Positions 14,741 through 24,761 of a stretch of 64,000 bases of DNA are shown in pieces (positions within the stretch are counted from its first letter, which is position 1; each line of letters starts with the position of its first letter). Made by a program: the position numbers and the translations under genes. Source of the DNA: Anaerolineae bacterium. GTDB lineage: Bacteria; Chloroflexota; Anaerolineae; Anaerolineales; Villigracilaceae. Location: positions 1 through 64,000 of the forward strand of contig QEXW01000034.1 of the NCBI GenBank assembly GCA_003130845.1. The letters run 5' to 3'. The notes below the pieces were generated by a model. The model saw only the letters and a program-made list of their open reading frames with translations, did not search any database and was not told where the DNA came from.

Positions 14741-15661
14741 ATGGGCATGGAATCCAAGTTTGTTTGGATGGACGGCGAACTGTTACCATTTGAAAAAGCC
14801 ACCATCCATTTTCTTACCCCCGCCTTGCACTATGGCGCTGCGGTCTTTGAGGGGATTCGCGCTTACGATACAGAACGCGGCCCGGCTATCTTTCGTCTAC
14901 GCGACCATGCAGAGCGGCTGATAGAATCGGCGGAAGTTTTTGGCTTTCGCAATCTCAAAATCACTGTGCAAGACGTGATGGAAGGTTGTAAAGCGGTTGT
15001 CAAAGCCAATGGCTTTCGCAATTGTTACATCCGCCCGCTCATTTACCTGACCGATGGCGGCTGGAATCTCAACGTAGATGCCGGGCGTGCGGCGCTGGGT
15101 ATTGCTGCTTGGGAGTGGAACAATTACCTGGGTGAAGAAGCTCTCGCCAAAGGGATTCGCGCCAATATCTCGTCTTTTACGCGGCATCACGTCAATGTGA
15201 TGATGACCAAAGCGAAAGTGGCCGGTAACTATGCCAACTCTTTCTTAGCCAAGACCGAATCGGTGCGCCTGGGTTTTGAGGAAGCGATTATGCTCGATCC
15301 CGCTGGCTATGTGGCCGAATGCACCGGTGAAAATATCTTTATCGTCAAACGCGGCAAAATCTTCACGCCGGCCATCGCCCCCGTCTTGGAGGGAATCACC
15401 CGCCATACCATTCATACCATCGCCCAAGATTTGGGTTATCGTGTTAAAGAACGCCCGATTAGCCGTGACCAACTCTACACCGCCGATGAAGTCTTCGTGG
15501 TTGGCACAGCGGCTGAATGCATTGGTCTGAGCGAAATTGACTTTCGTAAAATTGGCAATGGCGTGACCGGCCCCATTACTCAAGCCATTCAACGCGTGTA
15601 TCACGATGTCATTCGCGGACGCCATGCGCGTTCTGCCGAATGGTGCGATTATGTCGAATAA
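14741..15661 (+). CDS. ilvE: Branched-chain amino acid aminotransferase
   Basis: Class-IV PLP aminotransferase of 306 residues performing the last step for Ile, Val and Leu. Motifs include FEGIRAYDTERGPAIFRL, YIRPLIYLTDGGW, the PLP-lysine region TKAKVAGNYANSFLAK, and YVAECTGENIFIVKRG. AGGAG precedes the ATG, and the third codon is also Met, so the start could be 6 bases later. It closes the branched-chain operon: the next promoter begins 6 bases after its stop. Confidence 0.94.
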   Translation: MGMESKFVWMDGELLPFEKATIHFLTPALHYGAAVFEGIRAYDTERGPAIFRLRDHAERLIESAEVFGFRNLKITVQDVMEGCKAVVKANGFRNCYIRPLIYLTDGGWNLNVDAGRAALGIAAWEWNNYLGEEALAKGIRANISSFTRHHVNVMMTKAKVAGNYANSFLAKTESVRLGFEEAIMLDPAGYVAECTGENIFIVKRGKIFTPAIAPVLEGITRHTIHTIAQDLGYRVKERPISRDQLYTADEVFVVGTAAECIGLSEIDFRKIGNGVTGPITQAIQRVYHDVIRGRHARSAEWCDYVE

Positions 15662-15667
15662 TGCCCC

Positions 15668-15696
15668 TTGACACATCGCGCTCTCTAGCATAGAAT
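15668..15696 (+). promoter_or_regulatory. Promoter of the shikimate operon
   Basis: Perfect -35 TTGACA (15668-15673), a 17-base spacer and -10 TAGAAT (15691-15696). Transcription should start near 15703, only about 5 bases before the leader ATG, so the leader peptide is probably translated from a leaderless or nearly leaderless mRNA. Confidence 0.85.
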
Positions 15697-15707
15697 ACCG
15701 CCCAATT

Positions 15708-15791
15708 ATGAACATGCCTGTCTTCACCCGCTGGTTTGCGTTTTACTTTTATTACGGCCTCCGATTTCCGGTTGCCGGCGGCGGCGCTTAA
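15708..15791 (+). CDS. Aromatic leader peptide of the shikimate operon
   Basis: A 27-codon ORF with nine aromatic residues: Phe6, Trp9, Phe10, Phe12, Tyr13, Phe14, Tyr15, Tyr16 and Phe20, including the run WFAFYFYY. It sits between a consensus promoter and an intrinsic terminator, ahead of chorismate mutase and the DAHP synthases. This is the arrangement of a ribosome-mediated attenuator that responds to charged Phe-, Tyr- and Trp-tRNA together. The end of the ORF (15780-15789) can pair partly with the left arm of the terminator (15822-15830), a possible antiterminator. No Shine-Dalgarno sequence is visible. Confidence 0.78.
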   Translation: MNMPVFTRWFAFYFYYGLRFPVAGGGA

Positions 15792-15816
15792 GAGCAGGTA
15801 GATTGAACCTGACCTG

Positions 15817-15848
15817 AAAAAGAGCGAGCCACACGGCGCGCTCTTTTT
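15817..15848 (+). terminator. Attenuator terminator upstream of aroH
   Basis: AAAAAGAGCG (15817-15826) pairs with CGCTCTTTTT (15839-15848). After one mismatch, GCC (15828-15830) pairs with GGC (15835-15837) around an ACAC loop, and the T-run is part of the right arm. It lies between the leader peptide and aroH, so it can both end ilvE-side transcripts and attenuate the shikimate operon. Confidence 0.87.
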
Positions 15849-15884
15849 GTTTACCCGCTCACTTTTTGCATTCAGGAGGTCTGT

Positions 15885-16256
15885 ATGACCACTCGTGGAA
15901 TTCGCGGCGCAATCACCGTGGAAGCCGACCAACCCGAACTGATTCTTGCTGCCACACGTGAGCTGCTCGAAGCCATCTTGCAGGCAAACGCTGGCATGAC
16001 CCCTGCGGATATTGCCAGTGCCTTCTTCACCGTCACGGCAGATTTATCATCCACCTTCCCGGCGCAGGCTGCGCGTGAGATGGGTTGGAGCCAAGTGCCG
16101 ATGATGTGCGCTCGTGAGATACCGGTTCCTGGCAGTTTACCGCGCGTCATTCGTGTGATGGTGCATTGGAACACCGACCGACATCAGAACGAAATTGTTC
16201 ATGTCTATTTACGTGAAGCCGTACGTTTGCGGCCCGATTTGGTCGCTGCGCAATAA
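15885..16256 (+). CDS. aroH: Chorismate mutase, AroH type
   Basis: Monofunctional trimeric chorismate mutase of the Bacillus AroH family, 123 residues, converting chorismate to prephenate. The N-terminus MTTRGIRGAITVEAD, the ATRELLEAIL helix, the AFFTVTADLSSTFPAQAAR segment, the PMMCAREIPVPGSLPRVIRV segment with the active-site Arg and Cys, and a late HVYLREA are all typical. A strong AGGAGG lies 7 bases upstream. As first gene of the operon it directs flux toward Tyr/Phe. No prephenate dehydratase (pheA) is in the window. Confidence 0.93.
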   Translation: MTTRGIRGAITVEADQPELILAATRELLEAILQANAGMTPADIASAFFTVTADLSSTFPAQAAREMGWSQVPMMCAREIPVPGSLPRVIRVMVHWNTDRHQNEIVHVYLREAVRLRPDLVAAQ

Positions 16257-16307: not shown

Positions 16308-17360
16308 ATGATGATTATCATGAAACCCAACGCCACCCCTCAGCAAGTCGAAAATGTGATTACTCACATCAAAGCGGCTGGATTGTCTGTTCATCTCTCT
16401 CAGGGGGTAGAGACTACCATTATCGGTGCCATTGGCGAAACCCACAACATCCCCACCGAGCGCTTTGAAGTGCTAGATGGTGTGCAGGAAGTGCAACGGA
16501 TTACCAAACCCTACAAACTCGCCTCGCGCCAATTTCACCCGGAAAATTCCGTTTTCCCACTGGATGGCTTTACGGTGGGCGGCGAAGAAATTGCCATCAT
16601 CGCCGGGCCGTGTTCGGTCGAAGGTCGTACCCAAATCATCGAGACTGCACATGCCGTTAAAGAAGCCGGCGCTTGCGCTTTGCGTGGTGGAGTCTTCAAG
16701 CCTCGCACCTCGCCCTATTCCTTCCAAGGCTTGGGTGAAGAAGGCCTCGAATATCTCGCCGAAGCGCGCGAACAAACGGGTTTGCCGATTGTCGTTGAAA
16801 TTATGTCTCAAACCCAACTTGACTTGATGGTGCGTTATGTGGATGTGTTGCAAATTGGCGCGCGCAACATGCAAAACTTCAACCTTTTGCGCGCTGTAGG
16901 GGAAACCCGCACCCCCGTCTTACTCAAACGCGGACTGAGCGCCACCATCGAAGAATTGCTGATGTCTGCCGAATATGTTCTTTCTGGGGGAAACAAACAA
17001 GTGATGCTCTGTGAACGCGGTATTCGCACCTTCGAAACGGCCACCCGCAACACCACCGACATCAACGCCATTCCTGTACTCAAATCTCTCACCCACCTTC
17101 CTGTTATTCTCGACCCCTCTCATGCTACCGGTCATGCCGATTATGTCGCTGCGATTGCCCGTGCGGCCATTGCCGCCGGCGCCGATGGCTTGATTGTGGA
17201 AGTGCACCCCGACCCGGCCAACGCTGCTTCGGATGGCAAGCAATCCCTCAAGCCCGAAGCCTTTGCCAACATGGTCAAGCAGGTCGGGCAGATTGCTCAA
17301 ATTATGGAGCGCCGTCTGGCCGTTGTGCATGGTGCATATACCCCGCACGGTTGGGCCTAA
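16308..17360 (+). CDS. aroF: DAHP synthase, type I-beta with regulatory domain (copy 1)
   Basis: 3-Deoxy-D-arabino-heptulosonate-7-phosphate synthase, 350 residues, the entry step of the shikimate pathway. An N-terminal ferredoxin-like domain (about 1-70) of the Thermotoga type precedes the barrel; in that family it mediates feedback inhibition by Tyr/Phe. Barrel motifs include [55 protein letters not shown] and [17 protein letters not shown] precedes the start. It is closely similar to the gene behind it, including an identical stretch of about 44 bases (from 16563 and from 17654). Confidence 0.94.
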
Positions 17361-17398
17361 ACACAACCGACATCTTGAAACGAACAGGAACAGACCCT

Positions 17399-18445
17399 AT
17401 GATGATTATCATGCAGCCTGGCGCAACGCGCGCACAAATCGAACATGTTCTGGAACACATTCGGCAAAATCACCTTTCTCCGCACGTGATTGAAGGCGTC
17501 GAACAAACGGTGATTGGTGCAATTGGAGAAAGTCATGCCGTTCCCACCAGCGTCTTCGAGGGCTTGCCTGGTGTGCAGGCCGTACAGCGCATCAGCAAGC
17601 CCTATAAATTGGCCTCGCGCCAATTCCACCCACACGATTCTGTCTTTCCCTTAGATGGCTTTACGGTGGGCGGCGAAGAAATTGCCATCATCGCCGGCCC
17701 GTGTTCGGTTGAAAGCCGTGCGCAAATCATCGAGATTGCACACGCCGTCAAAGAAGCCGGCGCATGCGCTTTGCGGGGCGGTGCGTTCAAACCGCGCACC
17801 TCGCCGTATTCCTTCCAAGGCTTGGGTGAAGAAGGCCTAGAATACTTGGCTGAAGCCCGTCAACAAACGGGCTTGCCAGTAGTGGCCGAAGTGATGGCTA
17901 TCTCCCAAATTGAAATAATGACGCGCTATGTAGATGTGCTGCAAGTGGGCGCGCGCAACATGCAAAACTTCAACCTTTTGCGCGCCGTAGGGGAAACCCG
18001 CACCCCTGTCTTGCTCAAACGCGGCCTCAGTGCTACGGTCGAAGAGCTGCTCATGTCTGCCGAATACATTCTGAGCGGTGGTAATCATCATGTCATGCTT
18101 TGTGAACGGGGCATCCGTACCTTTGAAACAGCCACGCGCAATACCACCGACATCAACGCCATTCCAGTGCTTAAGTCGCTTACCCATTTGCCCGTTTTTC
18201 TTGACCCATCCCATTCCACCGGTTATGCAGAATACGTGGCGGCCATTTCCAAAGCCGCTATCGCTGCGGGAGCCGATGGCCTGATAATTGAAGTTCACCA
18301 AGACCCCCCTCACGCTCTTTCGGATGGCAAGCAATCCCTAACGCCCGAAGCCTTTGCCCAACTTGTCCGTCAAGCGCGAGCGGTGGCCCAAGCCGTAGAC
18401 CGCCGTTTGGCTGTCGTTCCCCAAACTGAAATCCGCCAGGTCTGA
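17399..18445 (+). CDS. aroF: DAHP synthase, type I-beta with regulatory domain (copy 2)
   Basis: Second 348-residue DAHP synthase, in tandem 38 bases after the first and with the same two-domain layout and active-site motifs ([30 protein letters not shown]). Differences cluster in the N-terminal regulatory domain and at both ends, while the barrel is nearly the same. The pair could be isoenzymes with different feedback inhibitors. The start was set at the ATGATGATTATCATG also used by copy 1; an in-frame codon 48 bases upstream lacks a ribosome binding site. Confidence 0.93.
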
Positions 18446-18446
18446 T

Positions 18447-19301
18447 ATGGATGATGGCTTTTTTCTTAAGCAATCTACTATTGCTATTGTTGGGTTGGGC
18501 TTGATGGGTGGCTCGCTGGCCCTGGCCTTGCGTGGACAGTGTGCTTGTTTGCTGGGCATAGACTCTGACCCTTCTGTCTTGGAACTTGCTCTGCGACAAA
18601 ACATCGTAGACCAAGCCGCAAGTGACCCGGCCACCCTGCTGCCACAGGCTGATTTGGTTATCCTGGCAGCGCCTGTTCCGGCCATCCTCTCCCTGCTTGA
18701 AGACCTGCCCGATTTCACACCCAATCCATGTATTGTGCTAGACCTTGGTTCGACCAAGCGCGCCATTCTAGAAAAAATGGCTGCCCTCCCAGAGCGCTTC
18801 GACCCACTTGGCGGGCATCCCATTTGTGGTAAAGAAAAACTTTCGCTTGCCAATGCCGAGCGCACGCTCTACTACGCCGCACCTTTCATCCTTACTCCGC
18901 TCCCGCGCACTACCTCGCGTGCCCGCTCTGCTGCAGGACAGCTGCTCTCGGTGTTGGGCGCCAAACCCCTGTGGCTCGACCCCGTTGAACATGACCATAT
19001 CCTCGCGCGCACCAGCCATCTTCCTTTCTTACTGGCCTCGGTCTTGGCACTTGCTACCCCGCTAGAATGCGCTCCACTGATTGGCCCAGGCTTTCGCTCC
19101 ACAGCTCGCTTGGCCGGGACACCCTCCAGCATGATGATGGGCATCTTACAAACCAATCGCGAGAACCTTTTGGCTGCTCTTGAAGCCGTACAGGATGAAC
19201 TGGCGTTGCTCACTGCCGCCCTGGCCGATTATGACTATGAAACCGTTCAAGTTACCCTCGATGCAGCGCGCGAAAAATACACCCAATTGATAACCTCATA
19301 A
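18447..19301 (+). CDS. tyrA: Prephenate dehydrogenase
   Basis: NAD-dependent oxidative decarboxylase of 284 residues giving 4-hydroxyphenylpyruvate for tyrosine. The Rossmann motif IVGLGLMGGSLALALRG is near residue 13, followed by VILAAPVPAIL, DLGSTKRAILEKM, the GGHPICGKEK active-site segment and HDHILARTSHLPF-like EHDHILARTSHLPF. There is no ACT or chorismate mutase domain; the mutase is AroH upstream. Only one base separates it from the previous stop. Confidence 0.92.
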   Translation: MDDGFFLKQSTIAIVGLGLMGGSLALALRGQCACLLGIDSDPSVLELALRQNIVDQAASDPATLLPQADLVILAAPVPAILSLLEDLPDFTPNPCIVLDLGSTKRAILEKMAALPERFDPLGGHPICGKEKLSLANAERTLYYAAPFILTPLPRTTSRARSAAGQLLSVLGAKPLWLDPVEHDHILARTSHLPFLLASVLALATPLECAPLIGPGFRSTARLAGTPSSMMMGILQTNRENLLAALEAVQDELALLTAALADYDYETVQVTLDAAREKYTQLITS

Positions 19302-19331: not shown

Positions 19332-20618
19332 ATGCTTCCTATTCACCCTATCCTTCACCCTTTGTCTGCCACGGTGCGTGTGCCTGGCTCCAAATCACTC
19401 ACCAATCGCGCCTTGTTGATTGCTGCGCTGGCAAGAGGAACCACCCGCCTGACCAACGCGCTCTTTAGTGATGATTCACGTTACTTTGCCCGCGCTTTAC
19501 AAACGCTGGGATTTGATGTCAGCCTGGATGAAGCCAATGGCGCCATGACCGTCAAGGGGCGTGCAGGTGAAATTCCCGCTTCACAGGCTGAACTTTATAT
19601 TGGGAATGCCGGCACTGCTGCCCGTTTCCTCAGCGCGTTTCTCACCCTGGGGCATGGTGAATACCTTTTGGATGGCGATCCACGCATGAGAGAGCGCCCC
19701 ATCGGTGATTTGGTGGATGCCTTGCATCAACTGGGCGCGGAGGTTGTCTCGCTTAAGGCGCACACCTCGGCGGTGGTTGCGCCTCCGCTCAAAATCACGG
19801 CTCATGGCTTGCCCGGCGGCAAAACCACCCTGGCCGGAGATATTTCCAGTCAATTTCTCTCGGCCTTGTTGATGGTTGCGCCTTATGCTCACGCGCCCGT
19901 TGAGATTGAACTCACCACCCAATTGAACTCTAAACCGTATGTGGATATGACTCTGGCTGTCATGCGTGATTTTGGTGTATCGGTTGAGCGCCATGGTTAT
20001 CAATGGTTTAAGATTGTTCCCCAATGTTACAGAGCACTCCCAGAATACTCCATTGAATCAGATGCCTCGGCAGCCTCCTACTTCTTTGCTGCACCGGCGG
20101 TTTGTGGCGGCCAGGTGCGGGTTGAAAACATCTCCCGCCATTCCATGCAGGGCGATATTGCTTTTTTAGATGTCCTGGAAAAGATGGGCTGCCAAGTGAC
20201 CGCAACATCCAGCGCTATCACGGTGGCTTGTCACTCCTCGCTCGTTGGCATTGAGATTGACATGCGCGACATCCCCGATACAGCCCAAACCCTGGCTGCA
20301 ATTGCCCCGTTTGCCACCTCGCCCACCCACATTTGTGGAATTGCTTCGGCGCGCGTAAAGGAAACGGACCGCATCGCTGCTACATGCACCGAATTGGCGC
20401 GCCTGGGCGTAAAGGTAGAAGAACATGCCGATGGTATGACCATCTACCCTTGTGACCATTTCCAACCGACCACCGTTCAGACCTATAATGACCATCGCAT
20501 GGCAATGGCTTTCTCGTTGATAGGATTGCGCATCCCTGGCCTCACCATCGCCAATCCCGATTGTGTTTCCAAAACCTTTCCCAATTTCTTCACCGTCCTC
20601 AACGCTTTACGCTCATAG
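19332..20618 (+). CDS. aroA: 3-Phosphoshikimate 1-carboxyvinyltransferase (EPSP synthase)
   Basis: EPSP synthase of 428 residues, sixth step of the pathway. Motifs are PGSKSLTNRALLIAAL at the N-terminus, GNAGTAARFLSAFL (about 91-104), the DPRMRERPIGDLVDAL loop, SSQFLSALLM, SIESDASAASYF and the late KETDRIAATCTEL and NDHRMAMAFSL. All look intact. Residue 96 of the classical glyphosate loop region is in GNAGTAARF, the common sensitive (class I-like) form. Confidence 0.95.
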   Translation: MLPIHPILHPLSATVRVPGSKSLTNRALLIAALARGTTRLTNALFSDDSRYFARALQTLGFDVSLDEANGAMTVKGRAGEIPASQAELYIGNAGTAARFLSAFLTLGHGEYLLDGDPRMRERPIGDLVDALHQLGAEVVSLKAHTSAVVAPPLKITAHGLPGGKTTLAGDISSQFLSALLMVAPYAHAPVEIELTTQLNSKPYVDMTLAVMRDFGVSVERHGYQWFKIVPQCYRALPEYSIESDASAASYFFAAPAVCGGQVRVENISRHSMQGDIAFLDVLEKMGCQVTATSSAITVACHSSLVGIEIDMRDIPDTAQTLAAIAPFATSPTHICGIASARVKETDRIAATCTELARLGVKVEEHADGMTIYPCDHFQPTTVQTYNDHRMAMAFSLIGLRIPGLTIANPDCVSKTFPNFFTVLNALRS

Positions 20619-20628
20619 CCGTTTTTCT

Positions 20629-21468
20629 ATGTCATACACGCTTGGCTTGCTTGGCTATCCTCTGGGTCATTCGCTCTCCCCCGTCATTCACACGGCTGCT
20701 CTCAAGGCCTGTGGATTACACGGAACCTATTCGCTCTTCCCAATTCCTCCCGAACACCCCCAAGAACTGCTTGCTTTGCTGGCCCGTTTGCGCGCTGGCG
20801 AGCTGCATGGCCTGAATGTCACCATCCCGCACAAACAGACCGTTTTACCGTTACTGGATGCCCTGACCGAAACCGCTCAAGCGATCGGTGCCGTAAACAC
20901 GATTTTTGTACGGCAAGGGCATCTGATCGGTGATAACACCGATGCGCCAGGCTTCCTGGCAGATGTAACGCGTTTTCTTCAACCGCTTCAGATGCTGGCT
21001 GCAAAATCGGCTCTTGTATTAGGCGCCGGCGGTTCGGCTCGCGCGGTCGTCTATGCGTTGTGCCAGGCGGGTTGGCAAGTTGCTGTGAGCACCCGCCGCC
21101 TCGAGCAAGCCCAAGGTCTGGCAGATTCGCTAAAAACAGCGCATAACCAAATTGAAATCCTTCCCCTAGATGCCCTGCACACATGGACCGGTACTTTGCT
21201 GGTTAACACGACCCCGCTCGGGATGACCCCGCATCTGGAGACCTCCCCCTGGCCTGAGGGGGTTGCTTTGCCCAAAGGCGTAGCGGTGTACGACCTAGTC
21301 TACAACCCACCTGAAACGCGCTTTGTTCGTGAAGCGCGTGCGGCTGGGTCGCCTGCCACAAGCGGTTTGGGAATGCTCATTGAGCAGGCGGCTCTGGCGT
21401 TTGAAATTTGGACTGGACATTCCCCTGCGCGTGCGCTTTTATCCCAAGCGCTTTCACACTCTGCATAG
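20629..21468 (+). CDS. aroE: Shikimate dehydrogenase
   Basis: NADPH-dependent reduction of 3-dehydroshikimate, 279 residues. The substrate-binding motif is LGYPLGHSLSPVIH, catalytic Lys is in NVTIPHKQTVLP, and NTDAPGF, LGAGGSARAVVYAL and the late GLGMLIEQAALAFE are present. The start was chosen at the ATG giving MSYTLGLLGYP; a longer in-frame reading upstream overlaps the aroA end and is likely spurious. Confidence 0.94.
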   Translation: MSYTLGLLGYPLGHSLSPVIHTAALKACGLHGTYSLFPIPPEHPQELLALLARLRAGELHGLNVTIPHKQTVLPLLDALTETAQAIGAVNTIFVRQGHLIGDNTDAPGFLADVTRFLQPLQMLAAKSALVLGAGGSARAVVYALCQAGWQVAVSTRRLEQAQGLADSLKTAHNQIEILPLDALHTWTGTLLVNTTPLGMTPHLETSPWPEGVALPKGVAVYDLVYNPPETRFVREARAAGSPATSGLGMLIEQAALAFEIWTGHSPARALLSQALSHSA

Positions 21469-21529
21469 CCTATTGGTTGGCCTTTTGTTTAATGCCTGGT
21501 CAACCCATACCAAACCCTGGATGCTGATT

Positions 21530-22705
21530 ATGTTACGCTTTCTTACTGCTGGAGAGTCACACGGGCCTTCTCTGACCGCTATCCTTGATGGAATTCCGGC
21601 TGGATTACCGCTCACTCCTGAAATTATTAATCATCAACTTGCTCGCCGCCAACAAGGCTACGGTTCTGGCGGGCGGATGAAAATTGAAACCGACATCGTT
21701 CACATTTTAGGTGGTGTAATGGGCGGCGAAACCACCGGCGCGCCGATTGCTCTTTTGGTCGAAAATGCCGACCACGCAAAATGGAAAAATAAACCCATCC
21801 CACCCTTCACGGCCCCCCGTCCTGGTCATGCCGATTTGACGGGTGCCATCAAATATGGCTATCGTGACCTGCGCCCCGCCCTAGAGCGTGCCTCCGCCCG
21901 CGAAACCACCATGCGGGTAGCAGCTGGCGCAATTTGTAAACATTTGCTTGAACAGTTCGGCATCCTTATTGGCGGATATGTTCAAGCCATTGGTGAAATT
22001 CAAGCCAATTTACATGCTATGCCATACCTCGCACGTTTTGCCGCTGCCGAAGCCTCCGATGTACGCTGTCCTGACCTGAGCGCGGCGGAACGGATGAGAG
22101 CGCGGATTGAAGCAATCATTCACGGCAAAGATACGCTCGGCGGGGTGTTAGAAATTGTGGCCCTTAACGTCCCGCCTGGCTTGGGCAGTTATGCGCAATG
22201 GGACCGCCGGTTAGAAGCGCGTTTGGCACAAGCCGTGATGAGCGTTCAGGCCATTAAAGGCGTCGAAATTGGTGATGCCTTTGAAAATGCTCGCTTACCC
22301 GGCACGCAAGCCCACGATGCAGTTACTCTTCAGGCTCAGGCAGAAGATGCCTTGCTGCGTCCTACCAACCGCGCTGGCGGCACCGAAGGTGGCATTTCCA
22401 ATGGGCAGCCGATTGTCATTCGCGCCGCCATGAAGCCAATCGCTACCACACTCACGCCCCAAATGACAGTAGACCTGGCGACCGGCCAGCCAGGACCCAC
22501 CAAATACGAGCGCTCTGATTTTTGCCCTGTGCCGCGCGCCGTTCCCATTTTGGAAGCAATGGTAGCCTTCGTCCTGGCGGATTCTCTGCTTGAAAAATTA
22601 GGTGGCGACTCGCTGACCGAGATGAAACCTCGTTTCCAAGCCTTGCGCCAAGCCCGCCTAACAGATTTGCCGATGGATAACCAAGAACATGTGTGGTGGG
22701 ACTGA
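21530..22705 (+). CDS. aroC: Chorismate synthase
   Basis: FMN-dependent enzyme of 391 residues forming chorismate, last step of the pathway. Signatures are FLTAGESHGPSLTAILDG near the N-terminus, RRQQGYGSGGRMKIE, GHADLTGAIKYGYRDLRPALERASARETTMR and the late PVPRAVPILEAMVAFVLAD-type end. The in-frame upstream extension (from 21323) overlaps aroE and lacks family similarity. An ATG 9 bases upstream is an alternative start. Confidence 0.95.
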   Translation: MLRFLTAGESHGPSLTAILDGIPAGLPLTPEIINHQLARRQQGYGSGGRMKIETDIVHILGGVMGGETTGAPIALLVENADHAKWKNKPIPPFTAPRPGHADLTGAIKYGYRDLRPALERASARETTMRVAAGAICKHLLEQFGILIGGYVQAIGEIQANLHAMPYLARFAAAEASDVRCPDLSAAERMRARIEAIIHGKDTLGGVLEIVALNVPPGLGSYAQWDRRLEARLAQAVMSVQAIKGVEIGDAFENARLPGTQAHDAVTLQAQAEDALLRPTNRAGGTEGGISNGQPIVIRAAMKPIATTLTPQMTVDLATGQPGPTKYERSDFCPVPRAVPILEAMVAFVLADSLLEKLGGDSLTEMKPRFQALRQARLTDLPMDNQEHVWWD

Positions 22706-24327
22706 TGACAGCCAGCCCAAAACGTGATAAATTTATGCGCAAACCACCTCACTTTGTTGACCATCGCATGAATCATATCTTCCTCTATGGCCCCCCTGGT
22801 TCCGGTAAAAGTAGCGTTGGGCGCGTTCTGGCGTCTAACCTGGAGATGGAATTTGTAGACCTCGATGCAGAAATTGTGGCTTTCACCGGCCAAACCATTG
22901 CCCAAATCATGGCAGAATGGGGCGAATCAGGCTTTCGCGACATTGAAAGCACCGCTTTACGCCGTGTCACCAAAGGCCCGCCCCGCGTGATTGCCTTGGG
23001 TGGAGGCGCCTTGTTACGCGCCCAAAATCGCTCACACGCCGAATCAAAAGGCGTAGTGATTGCCTTGACGGCCCAAATGGAAACGCTCCAGGAACGCATC
23101 GCCCAAGACGTTGTGGAACGCCCCCTGCTGGCCGATGACCTGCCCGGCAAATTGGCTCGCTTACTCGAACGCCGCTCGGACCATTACCGTTCCTACGATT
23201 TGCGCGTAGCCACTGATGGGCTGACCCCGGAAGACGTGGCCTGGTACATCCAAACCATGATTGGGCGCTTCCGTGTACGTGGCATGGGGCAGCCCTACGA
23301 TGTTGTTGTCCAACCTGGCGGCTTTGATACCTTGCCAGATTGGTTACGCCGCTGCGGTTTGGATGATGGGCCGATGGTCATCGTCAGCGATGAAAACGTC
23401 GCCCCGCTCTACGCTGAACGATTGATGAAACTGCTGCGCCGTGCCGGCATTTATTCAACGTTGGTGACCATTCCTGCAGGAGAACAGTACAAAACGCTCG
23501 AAACTGTCACAGCCCTATGGCGTAAGTTTTTGACGATGGGTTTAGACCGAAAAAGCACCTTGCTCGCCTTGGGTGGGGGAGTGGTGGGTGACCTCGCCGG
23601 ATTCGCCGCCGCAACCTTTATGCGCGGCATGAATTGGGTCGTTTTGCCCAGCACCCTCTTGGCGATGGTAGATGCCTCTATGGGGGGCAAGACCGGCTTT
23701 GACTTGCCCGAAGGCAAGAACCTGGTCGGAGCGTTTTACCCCCCAAAACTGGTGTTTGCCAACCCGTTTATGCTTTCTACCCTCGCCGATGCCGAGCTGC
23801 GCTCTGGCCTAGCAGAAGTGGTCAAACATGGCGTCATTGCCGACCCTGCTCTCTTCACCCTCTGTTCCGGTGGGCTAGAAGCCGTAAAAGATGATGTGAC
23901 CCAAATTGTGCAACGTGCGATGGCCGTCAAAGTCCAAATCATCGAAGTCGACCCTTACGAAAAAGGCATTCGTGCCGCCCTCAACTTTGGACACACGGTT
24001 GGACATGCCATCGAAAAAGTCTCCGACTACCGCATTCGACATGGTGAAGCCGTTTCTATGGGCATGGTGGCAGAAGCCCGCCTGGCTGAACGTTTGTGGG
24101 TTTGCTCCAAAGGCTTGGCAAATCGCATTGCCGCCACACTCACTAGTTTGGGTTTACCCACCGAAATCCCACCCGATTTGCCGCGCGAGGCCCTGCTCGC
24201 CGCCATGAAGCATGACAAGAAGCGTAAAGGCGGCGTCGTTCACTTTGCCCTGCCTGAGGAGATTGGCAAAATGCAAGTAGGTGTGGCATTGGATGACCCA
24301 AGCCTGGTCTTTGAGGAGAGAAAATGA
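22705..24327 (+). CDS. aroKB: Shikimate kinase / 3-dehydroquinate synthase fusion
   Basis: A single 540-residue protein carrying two enzymes. The N-terminal part is shikimate kinase (about 22-180) with P-loop YGPPGSGKSSVGRVLA, LDAEIV, FRDIESTAL and GGGALLR. The C-terminal part is dehydroquinate synthase (about 195-535) with PAGEQYKTLE, GGGVVGDLAGFAAATFMRG, DASMGGKTGFDLPEGKNL, the metal ligands around EVVKHGVI and NFGHTVGHAIE. These are the fifth and second steps, so they are not consecutive. The start overlaps the aroC stop by one base (TGATG). A later ATG at 22768 would start directly at the kinase. Confidence 0.93.
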   Translation: MTASPKRDKFMRKPPHFVDHRMNHIFLYGPPGSGKSSVGRVLASNLEMEFVDLDAEIVAFTGQTIAQIMAEWGESGFRDIESTALRRVTKGPPRVIALGGGALLRAQNRSHAESKGVVIALTAQMETLQERIAQDVVERPLLADDLPGKLARLLERRSDHYRSYDLRVATDGLTPEDVAWYIQTMIGRFRVRGMGQPYDVVVQPGGFDTLPDWLRRCGLDDGPMVIVSDENVAPLYAERLMKLLRRAGIYSTLVTIPAGEQYKTLETVTALWRKFLTMGLDRKSTLLALGGGVVGDLAGFAAATFMRGMNWVVLPSTLLAMVDASMGGKTGFDLPEGKNLVGAFYPPKLVFANPFMLSTLADAELRSGLAEVVKHGVIADPALFTLCSGGLEAVKDDVTQIVQRAMAVKVQIIEVDPYEKGIRAALNFGHTVGHAIEKVSDYRIRHGEAVSMGMVAEARLAERLWVCSKGLANRIAATLTSLGLPTEIPPDLPREALLAAMKHDKKRKGGVVHFALPEEIGKMQVGVALDDPSLVFEERK

Positions 24328-24761
24328 CTGCGCTCCTGGTTTTGCATGGCCCAAACTTAAATCTGCTTGGCACACGTGAGCCGGATGTGTATGGCCGCTT
24401 GACCTTAGATGAAATCAATGCCCGCTGCATAGCCCTAGGGCAAGAATTAGGCGTTGAAGTGCGCTGTCTCCAATCCAACCACGAAGGCGCACTCATAGAC
24501 GCCCTGCACGAGGCCCGCACCTGGGCTGCCGGCGTGGTCTTCAACCCGGGCGGTTATACCCATACCTCGGTGGCTCTGCGCGATGCGATTGCTGCCATTG
24601 GCCTACCGGTCATCGAAGTCCACCTTTCCAATGTCTATGCCCGCGAGGACTTTCGACACAAATCGCTTATTTCGGCAGTGTGCCGAGGCAAAATTACCGG
24701 CTTGGGTTGGCGTTCGTACACACTTGCCATCCGATTTCTGTTCGAGATGTTAAACGAGTAA
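24324..24761 (+). CDS. aroQ: 3-Dehydroquinate dehydratase, type II
   Basis: Small dodecameric-type dehydroquinase of 145 residues, third step of the pathway. Motifs are VLHGPNLNLLGTREPDVYG with the catalytic Tyr, QSNHEGALIDALHEA, FNPGGYTHTSVALRDAI and IEVHLSNVYAREDFRHKS. It overlaps the aroKB stop by four bases (ATGA), so the two are likely translationally coupled. It completes the set of seven shikimate activities in this operon. Confidence 0.95.
   Translation: MTALLVLHGPNLNLLGTREPDVYGRLTLDEINARCIALGQELGVEVRCLQSNHEGALIDALHEARTWAAGVVFNPGGYTHTSVALRDAIAAIGLPVIEVHLSNVYAREDFRHKSLISAVCRGKITGLGWRSYTLAIRFLFEMLNE

Follow-up and report, generated by a model that had tools for sequence, protein, structure and literature searches.

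The window analyzed here, a 64,000-nucleotide stretch of a contig from an Anaerolineae bacterium of the family Villigracilaceae, contains in order an ilv-leu operon, a promoter, a 27-codon open reading frame (ORF), a terminator, and the genes aroH-aroF-aroF-tyrA-aroA-aroE-aroC-aroKB-aroQ. The last gene of the ilv-leu operon is ilvE, with its stop at 15661, 7 nt before the -35 box of the promoter. The features that follow it are these:

15668-15673, + strand: -35 box, TTGACA
15691-15696, + strand: -10 box, TAGAAT, with a 17-nt spacer to the -35 box
15708-15791, + strand: leader ORF MNMPVFTRWFAFYFYYGLRFPVAGGGA, 27 codons, ATG at 15708 and stop codon TAA at 15789-15791
15732-15755, + strand: aromatic run TGG TTT GCG TTT TAC TTT TAT TAC, codons 9-16 of the leader
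15754-15777, + strand: hairpin 1:2 (ACGGC..CCG..CGG..GCCG), from the RNAalifold consensus, -12.0 kcal/mol in the window
15773-15790, + strand: segment 2, the 5' strand of the antiterminator, TGCCGGCGGCGGCGCTTA, which overlaps the end of the ORF with its stop codon
15817-15838, + strand: segment 3, the terminator left arm and loop, partner of segment 2 (duplex -21.7 kcal/mol)
15817-15848, + strand: intrinsic terminator, hairpin 3:4 plus U run (-18.2 kcal/mol by folding)
15874-15880, + strand: aroH ribosome-binding site, AGGAGGT
15885-16256, + strand: aroH, monofunctional chorismate mutase (TIGR01796)
16308-18445, + strand: two tandem DAHP synthase genes of the aroF type (TIGR01361)
18447-19301, + strand: tyrA, prephenate dehydrogenase (best models under their curated cut-offs)
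19332-20618, + strand: aroA, EPSP synthase (TIGR01356)
20563-21468, + strand: aroE, shikimate dehydrogenase (TIGR00507)
21521-22705, + strand: aroC, chorismate synthase (TIGR00033)
22693-24327, + strand: aroK-aroB fusion, shikimate kinase plus 3-dehydroquinate synthase (NCBIfam check)
24324-24761, + strand: aroQ, type II 3-dehydroquinate dehydratase (TIGR01088)

Checks with NCBIfam models bore out an earlier note on this DNA, made from the sequence alone, which had placed aroH and all seven shikimate activities downstream of the leader. Beyond the shikimate steps, the nine genes also encode a chorismate mutase and a prephenate dehydrogenase. The genes pheA and trpE are on other contigs. The listed GTG start of aroE overlaps aroA, and a later true start is probable. 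The tandem DAHP synthase genes resemble each other, and several relatives have just one. Among named relatives the nearest is Anaerolineales bacterium SKYG2, with a 93% identical AroH and the nine genes in the identical order; in more distant Chloroflexota just aroH-aroF follow the leader within 8 kb. On the basis of gene order, the controlled transcript is predicted to comprise all nine genes.

The promoter matches the consensus at 11 of 12 positions, and promoters at the same place score 10 to 11 of 12 in 102 of 107 relatives. With the usual 7 nt assumed between a -10 box and the transcription start, transcription is predicted to begin at ~15702-15704. The leader ORF begins 11 nt behind this near-consensus promoter, has no Shine-Dalgarno sequence before it, and encodes nine aromatic residues (five Phe, three Tyr, and one Trp). 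Given the predicted transcription start, its 5' untranslated region would be ~4-5 nt, and translation would begin on a nearly leaderless RNA. Both the promoter and the nine-aromatic ORF agree with the earlier note, to within a base or two in coordinates, and its prediction of a near-leaderless start fits the distance from the -10 box to the leader ATG, which is 10 nt in 87 of 107 relatives.

With AroH as the guide, we located the corresponding place in 152 family, 396 class, and 400 phylum genomes, most of those compared being metagenome assemblies, and read the upstream DNA for a short ORF in which a stretch of eight codons holds five or more aromatic residues. Such an ORF was present upstream of aroH in 105 of 108 family members; among the controls it turned up in 2% of the dinucleotide shuffles and in 2 of the 108 reverse complements. 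It was also found in 37 of 47 other class members (shuffles, 1.5%) and in 9 of 38 further Chloroflexota (shuffles, 0.3%), and was absent upstream of aroH in Bacillota with a similar AroH. The three family exceptions below the ORF threshold (G062, G029, and G066) were all matched by a family covariance model of 140 positions, by which the element is essentially single in each genome, before aroH. The conserved aromatic codon runs that the earlier note had proposed to look for are thus found in both family and class; relatives that lack the ORF, which the note had named as evidence against its reading, are the exception in the family.

This conservation bears on the simplest alternative, that the terminator marks the end of the upstream ilv/leu operon and the presence of an aromatic ORF before it is a coincidence. 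The short distance from the end of ilvE to the -35 box is compatible with such an arrangement, but the ORF, the terminator, and their spacing are conserved in 108 relatives, compared with 2% in shuffles, which refutes it, and we give it practically no credence. With Rfam covariance models, the window had no hit at gathering scores and 15600-15920 none up to E = 1, so that the element matched neither a T-box nor any other RNA family described there.

The family leaders have a consensus near MLKSxRWFAFYFYYGFRxSVAVGGA and a conserved length of ~25 residues. When the aromatic codons in the relatives' leader DNA were counted by frame, 721 fell in the frame of the ATG, versus 187 and 120 in the other two. 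Within the aromatic run the two Tyr codons are used equally, and Phe is mostly TTT. The class leaders outside the family encode peptides that defy alignment (examples are MACGAFPFYYYFFFAWCPPAPG and MHPLLNEFWCGFYFAFYFTG), with the arrangement unchanged.

The terminator has the sequence AAAAAGAGCG-A-GCC-ACAC-GGC-G-CGCTCTTTTT. A simple pattern scan for terminators detected none, and the A/G mismatch within its stem is the presumed reason. By folding, a terminator was found in 105 of 108 relatives, and in the remaining three by eye, with a median of -22.5 kcal/mol; 10 of its 13 pairs are changed on both sides among relatives, none of 500 shuffles scored as high, and 95% of alignment cells are paired. 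The strong intrinsic terminator that the earlier note saw after the ORF is therefore both conserved and covarying. In hairpin 1:2, the last Tyr-Gly codons contribute ACGGC, which pairs with GCCGT of the 3' part of the ORF, with an inner CCG:CGG stem, so that the hairpin sequesters the 5' part of segment 2. Two-sided changes were seen at five of its eight pairs (0/500 shuffles; 88% paired).

The third helix, in which segment 2 pairs with segment 3, was marked by the earlier note as an imperfect antiterminator at 15780-15789. The pairing itself holds; "imperfect" does not, the duplex being longer (15773-15790) and stronger (-21.7 kcal/mol) than described. In the family, TGCCGTTGGYGGCGCTTA pairs with GAGCGAGRCC-loop-ACGGY, so that the terminator loop is used besides the arm. 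All 105 of 105 family sequences form a duplex of -15 to -26 kcal/mol, with a mean of -19.8 compared with -13.2 for shuffled partners. Native partners also beat permuted ones (P = 0.007 overall and 0.018 for a hand-picked divergent set, values that ignore relatedness and serve as guides), although by a modest ~0.3 to 1.3 kcal/mol over swapped partners. Covarying stems, which the earlier note had suggested as a check, are therefore found for the terminator and hairpin 1:2, with covariation of the antiterminator modest because sequence conservation is high and some lineages shift the register by one. The terminator loop also aligns differently between two terminator subtypes. RNAalifold, applied to the full MAFFT alignment, did not report the antiterminator, the terminator being the more stable structure; the antiterminator became partly visible only once the terminator right arm was removed, and per-sequence duplexes were therefore used. 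For 36 class leaders from outside the family that have a terminator but cannot be aligned, the mean duplex z score was -2.8, with 26 of the 36 below -2. In these class leaders the antiterminator begins a few codons past the aromatic run, and in some it is an uninterrupted helix of 11 to 13 bp.

Segment 2 coincides with the 3' end of the ORF, and its DNA is read in three different frames, by 92, 14, and 1 relatives plus a paralogue. The first two give peptides ending in VAVGGA and LPLVALK, and the third occurs in the one genome and the paralogue. The segment is therefore conserved as RNA. Judged from these alignments, the first half of the leader is conserved as codons and the second half as RNA, which matches the prediction of attenuation.

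Two readings in which the peptide itself matters can be weighed on this evidence. A nascent-peptide sensor like tnaC, in which the peptide would stall the ribosome on free aromatic amino acids, agrees with an aromatic-rich peptide of conserved length in the family. However, such a sensor would conserve residues, whereas the order of Phe, Tyr, and Trp changes freely, the frame that encodes the peptide varies beyond the run, and the peptides outside the family are unalignable, all of which makes it very unlikely. That the ORF encodes a small functional protein, for example a membrane protein, with the terminator an ordinary one, would account for the hydrophobic run and the conserved start, yet its C-terminal half is not conserved as protein, and three competing helices link the ORF to the terminator; we regard this as extremely improbable.

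Two variants of the element were seen among the relatives. In one genome, a second copy (L272, ~1035-1190; G035:C59:29634-29781) sits between pheA and a stand-alone aroF (DAHP synthase); its leader, MATANRFYFFAFFFRLPKHGCRWWRLSG, is dominated by Phe and uses the third frame for segment 2. The Phe-dominated sequence of this copy hints at isozyme-specific sensing. In another (L100; G066:C29:1493-1634), the usual stop of the leader is gone and the ORF apparently reads through the terminator toward aroH, a loss that may be real or may be an assembly error.

To relate ribosome position to the competing helices, we used a footprint model. The model takes the textbook footprint and assumes that coverage extends ~12 nt past the first base of the A-site codon. 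In this model, all 13 pairs of 2:3 are available only with the ribosome at codons 13-18, from where it prevents hairpin 1:2 without covering any of segment 2. The first four of these codons, 13-16, encode Tyr, Phe, Tyr, and Tyr. A ribosome at Trp codon 9 would leave hairpin 1:2 still able to form, and one anywhere from codon 23 to the stop would cover segment 2, so that 2:3 is lost and the terminator alone remains.

Across the relatives, the run closes with four codons that nearly always encode Phe or Tyr, the two being equally common. Among the 92 relatives with a clear run end, Trp is present in the leader of 62, leaving about one-third without it; where present, it mostly stands seven codons before the last Tyr, and it falls within the last five codons of the run in seven. 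Since in the footprint model it is a ribosome at the run end, which is Phe/Tyr, that frees the antiterminator, and Trp is mostly upstream or missing, we read the leader as a Phe/Tyr sensor.

The earlier note had proposed that all three aromatic amino acids are sensed. The same attenuator could be a true three-way sensor, since a Trp codon is present in the window's leader and in two-thirds of those relatives, and the operon yields chorismate, the precursor of Trp. This claim does not fit the position of Trp codon 9 outside the stalling window, nor the usual place of Trp in relatives, outside the stretch that blocks hairpin 1:2; Trp is rare near the run end and occurs in the runs of only 13 of the 36 class leaders. 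In addition, a quick scan of the 1.5-kb flanks of pheA and trpE in the same genome found no clear Trp- or aromatic-rich leader, trpE included. We therefore consider three-way sensing unlikely. As a separate observation, a Trp-containing ORF lies near pheA in this genome.

By computation, then, the locus holds a leader ORF and three competing helices that are conserved and covary, and these comprise the parts that define a trp-type attenuator: a leader rich in codons for the pathway's products, an intrinsic terminator, an antiterminator, and a hairpin 1:2 over the ORF. Of the earlier proposal that an aromatic leader attenuates a shikimate operon, the anatomy stands and the three-amino-acid sensing falls away. 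We put at roughly 90% the probability that this is a transcription attenuator of the ribosome-mediated kind, with charged tRNA-Phe and tRNA-Tyr as the signals read and the entire shikimate operon under its control.

For transcription initiation, leader translation, ribosome stalling, and the amino acid response, the prediction is as follows. Transcription would begin ~4-5 nt before the leader ATG, and ribosomes would initiate on the near-leaderless 5' end. When Phe-tRNA or Tyr-tRNA is short, the ribosome would stall at codons 13-16 and cover the 5' arm of hairpin 1:2; segment 2 would then be free to pair with the terminator left arm and loop, and polymerase would continue into aroH-aroQ. When both tRNAs are plentiful, the ribosome would move on to the stop codon, located at the 3' end of segment 2, and mask that segment, so that the terminator at 15817-15848 could form. 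If the leader is not translated, hairpin 1:2 would hold much of segment 2, and termination would be favored. Without a ribosome, and until the right arm has been synthesized, ~9 pairs of 2:3 are compatible with hairpin 1:2, and the off state is therefore not perfectly clean.

In the class leaders outside the family the terminator core differs, with a recurring GCGTGGAGC...GCTCCACGC (for example, in L167, L165, L146, and L184). This core is shared by Anaerolineae families and some other Chloroflexota lineages, probably Chloroflexia, which suggests an old common origin. With moderate confidence, we favor the broader view that old, phylum-specific dual Phe/Tyr attenuators govern the common aromatic pathway of the Anaerolineae and also of some other Chloroflexota lineages (probably Chloroflexia). 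They would act as a leaderless OR gate that either shortage opens, with an overprinted antiterminator that can be read in any frame, and duplicates could specialize, as with the Phe-rich copy at a stand-alone DAHP synthase gene in one relative.

A second attenuator-like leader lies in the window at 2346-2506, where a TTGACG/TATAAT promoter precedes an Ile/Leu/Val-rich ORF (2346-2447; MSTQFSLSLIVVLISVLIIKGLFVVGTARVSAR) and then, ahead of ilvD in the ilv-leu operon, a terminator hairpin (AAAGAGCCGCCC...GGGGCGGCTTTTTT, -19.5 kcal/mol). From its sequence, the neighboring branched-chain operon seems to be under the same kind of control.

If the proposed mechanism holds, it suggests a possible route by which one RNA regulates the shared trunk of a branched pathway. 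The order of Phe, Tyr, and Trp, reshuffled by evolution, offers a natural comparison of sensors. The 3' half of the ORF, kept as RNA while its frame shifts, would mislead searches for leader genes that rely on the peptide. In the openly readable literature we found no description of Chloroflexota attenuators, and none of this Chloroflexota family, of a dual Phe/Tyr run over the whole pathway, or of a frame-free antiterminator; a Phe/Tyr attenuator thus seems to be undescribed in Chloroflexota.

The classical ribosome-mediated attenuators trpL, pheL (of pheA), and pheM (of pheST) of Escherichia coli each respond to one amino acid. Like them, the Anaerolineae element has a leader ORF with codons for the product, three competing helices, a terminator before the first structural gene, and a segment 2 that would be masked by a ribosome at the stop codon. 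Unlike them, as regulators of a terminal branch or a synthetase, it has interleaved Phe and Tyr codons, stands before the common pathway, and is without a Shine-Dalgarno sequence. Leaders for several amino acids are known from branched-chain operons (ilvL and ivbL of E. coli and ilvBNC of Corynebacterium glutamicum), which ours resembles in reading more than one amino acid and from which it differs in being aromatic. The aroR-aroF attenuator of C. glutamicum, reportedly described by Neshat et al. in 2014, shares with ours an aromatic leader on the shikimate entry step. It is reported to have a Phe-Tyr-Phe leader before a DAHP synthase gene (PMC11802643, PMC4046766) and to respond to Phe, not Tyr (PMC11802643). 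The ilvBNC leader lacks a ribosome-binding site (cited in PMC4046766). Compared by description only, the Anaerolineae element differs from this three-codon run in another phylum by its run of seven to nine codons and its nine-gene operon from aroH. The uORFC-13-1 motif of Acholeplasma is a predicted upstream ORF with one or more Phe codons and a terminator directly before aroF; its 24 representatives come from Acholeplasma and unknown environmental sequences only, and it has a ribosome-binding site (PMC8632094). Its published description mentions no multi-aromatic run, such as our element has, and our leader is without a ribosome-binding site. With aroR-aroF and uORFC-13-1 published, the principle of aromatic leaders at the shikimate entry is not new, and the earlier note went too far in calling it unusual for a leader to respond to several aromatic amino acids or to control the common pathway. 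Beside these systems, the present element would extend classical attenuation to Chloroflexota, with a model-ready example in more than 100 family members and unalignable versions in the class.
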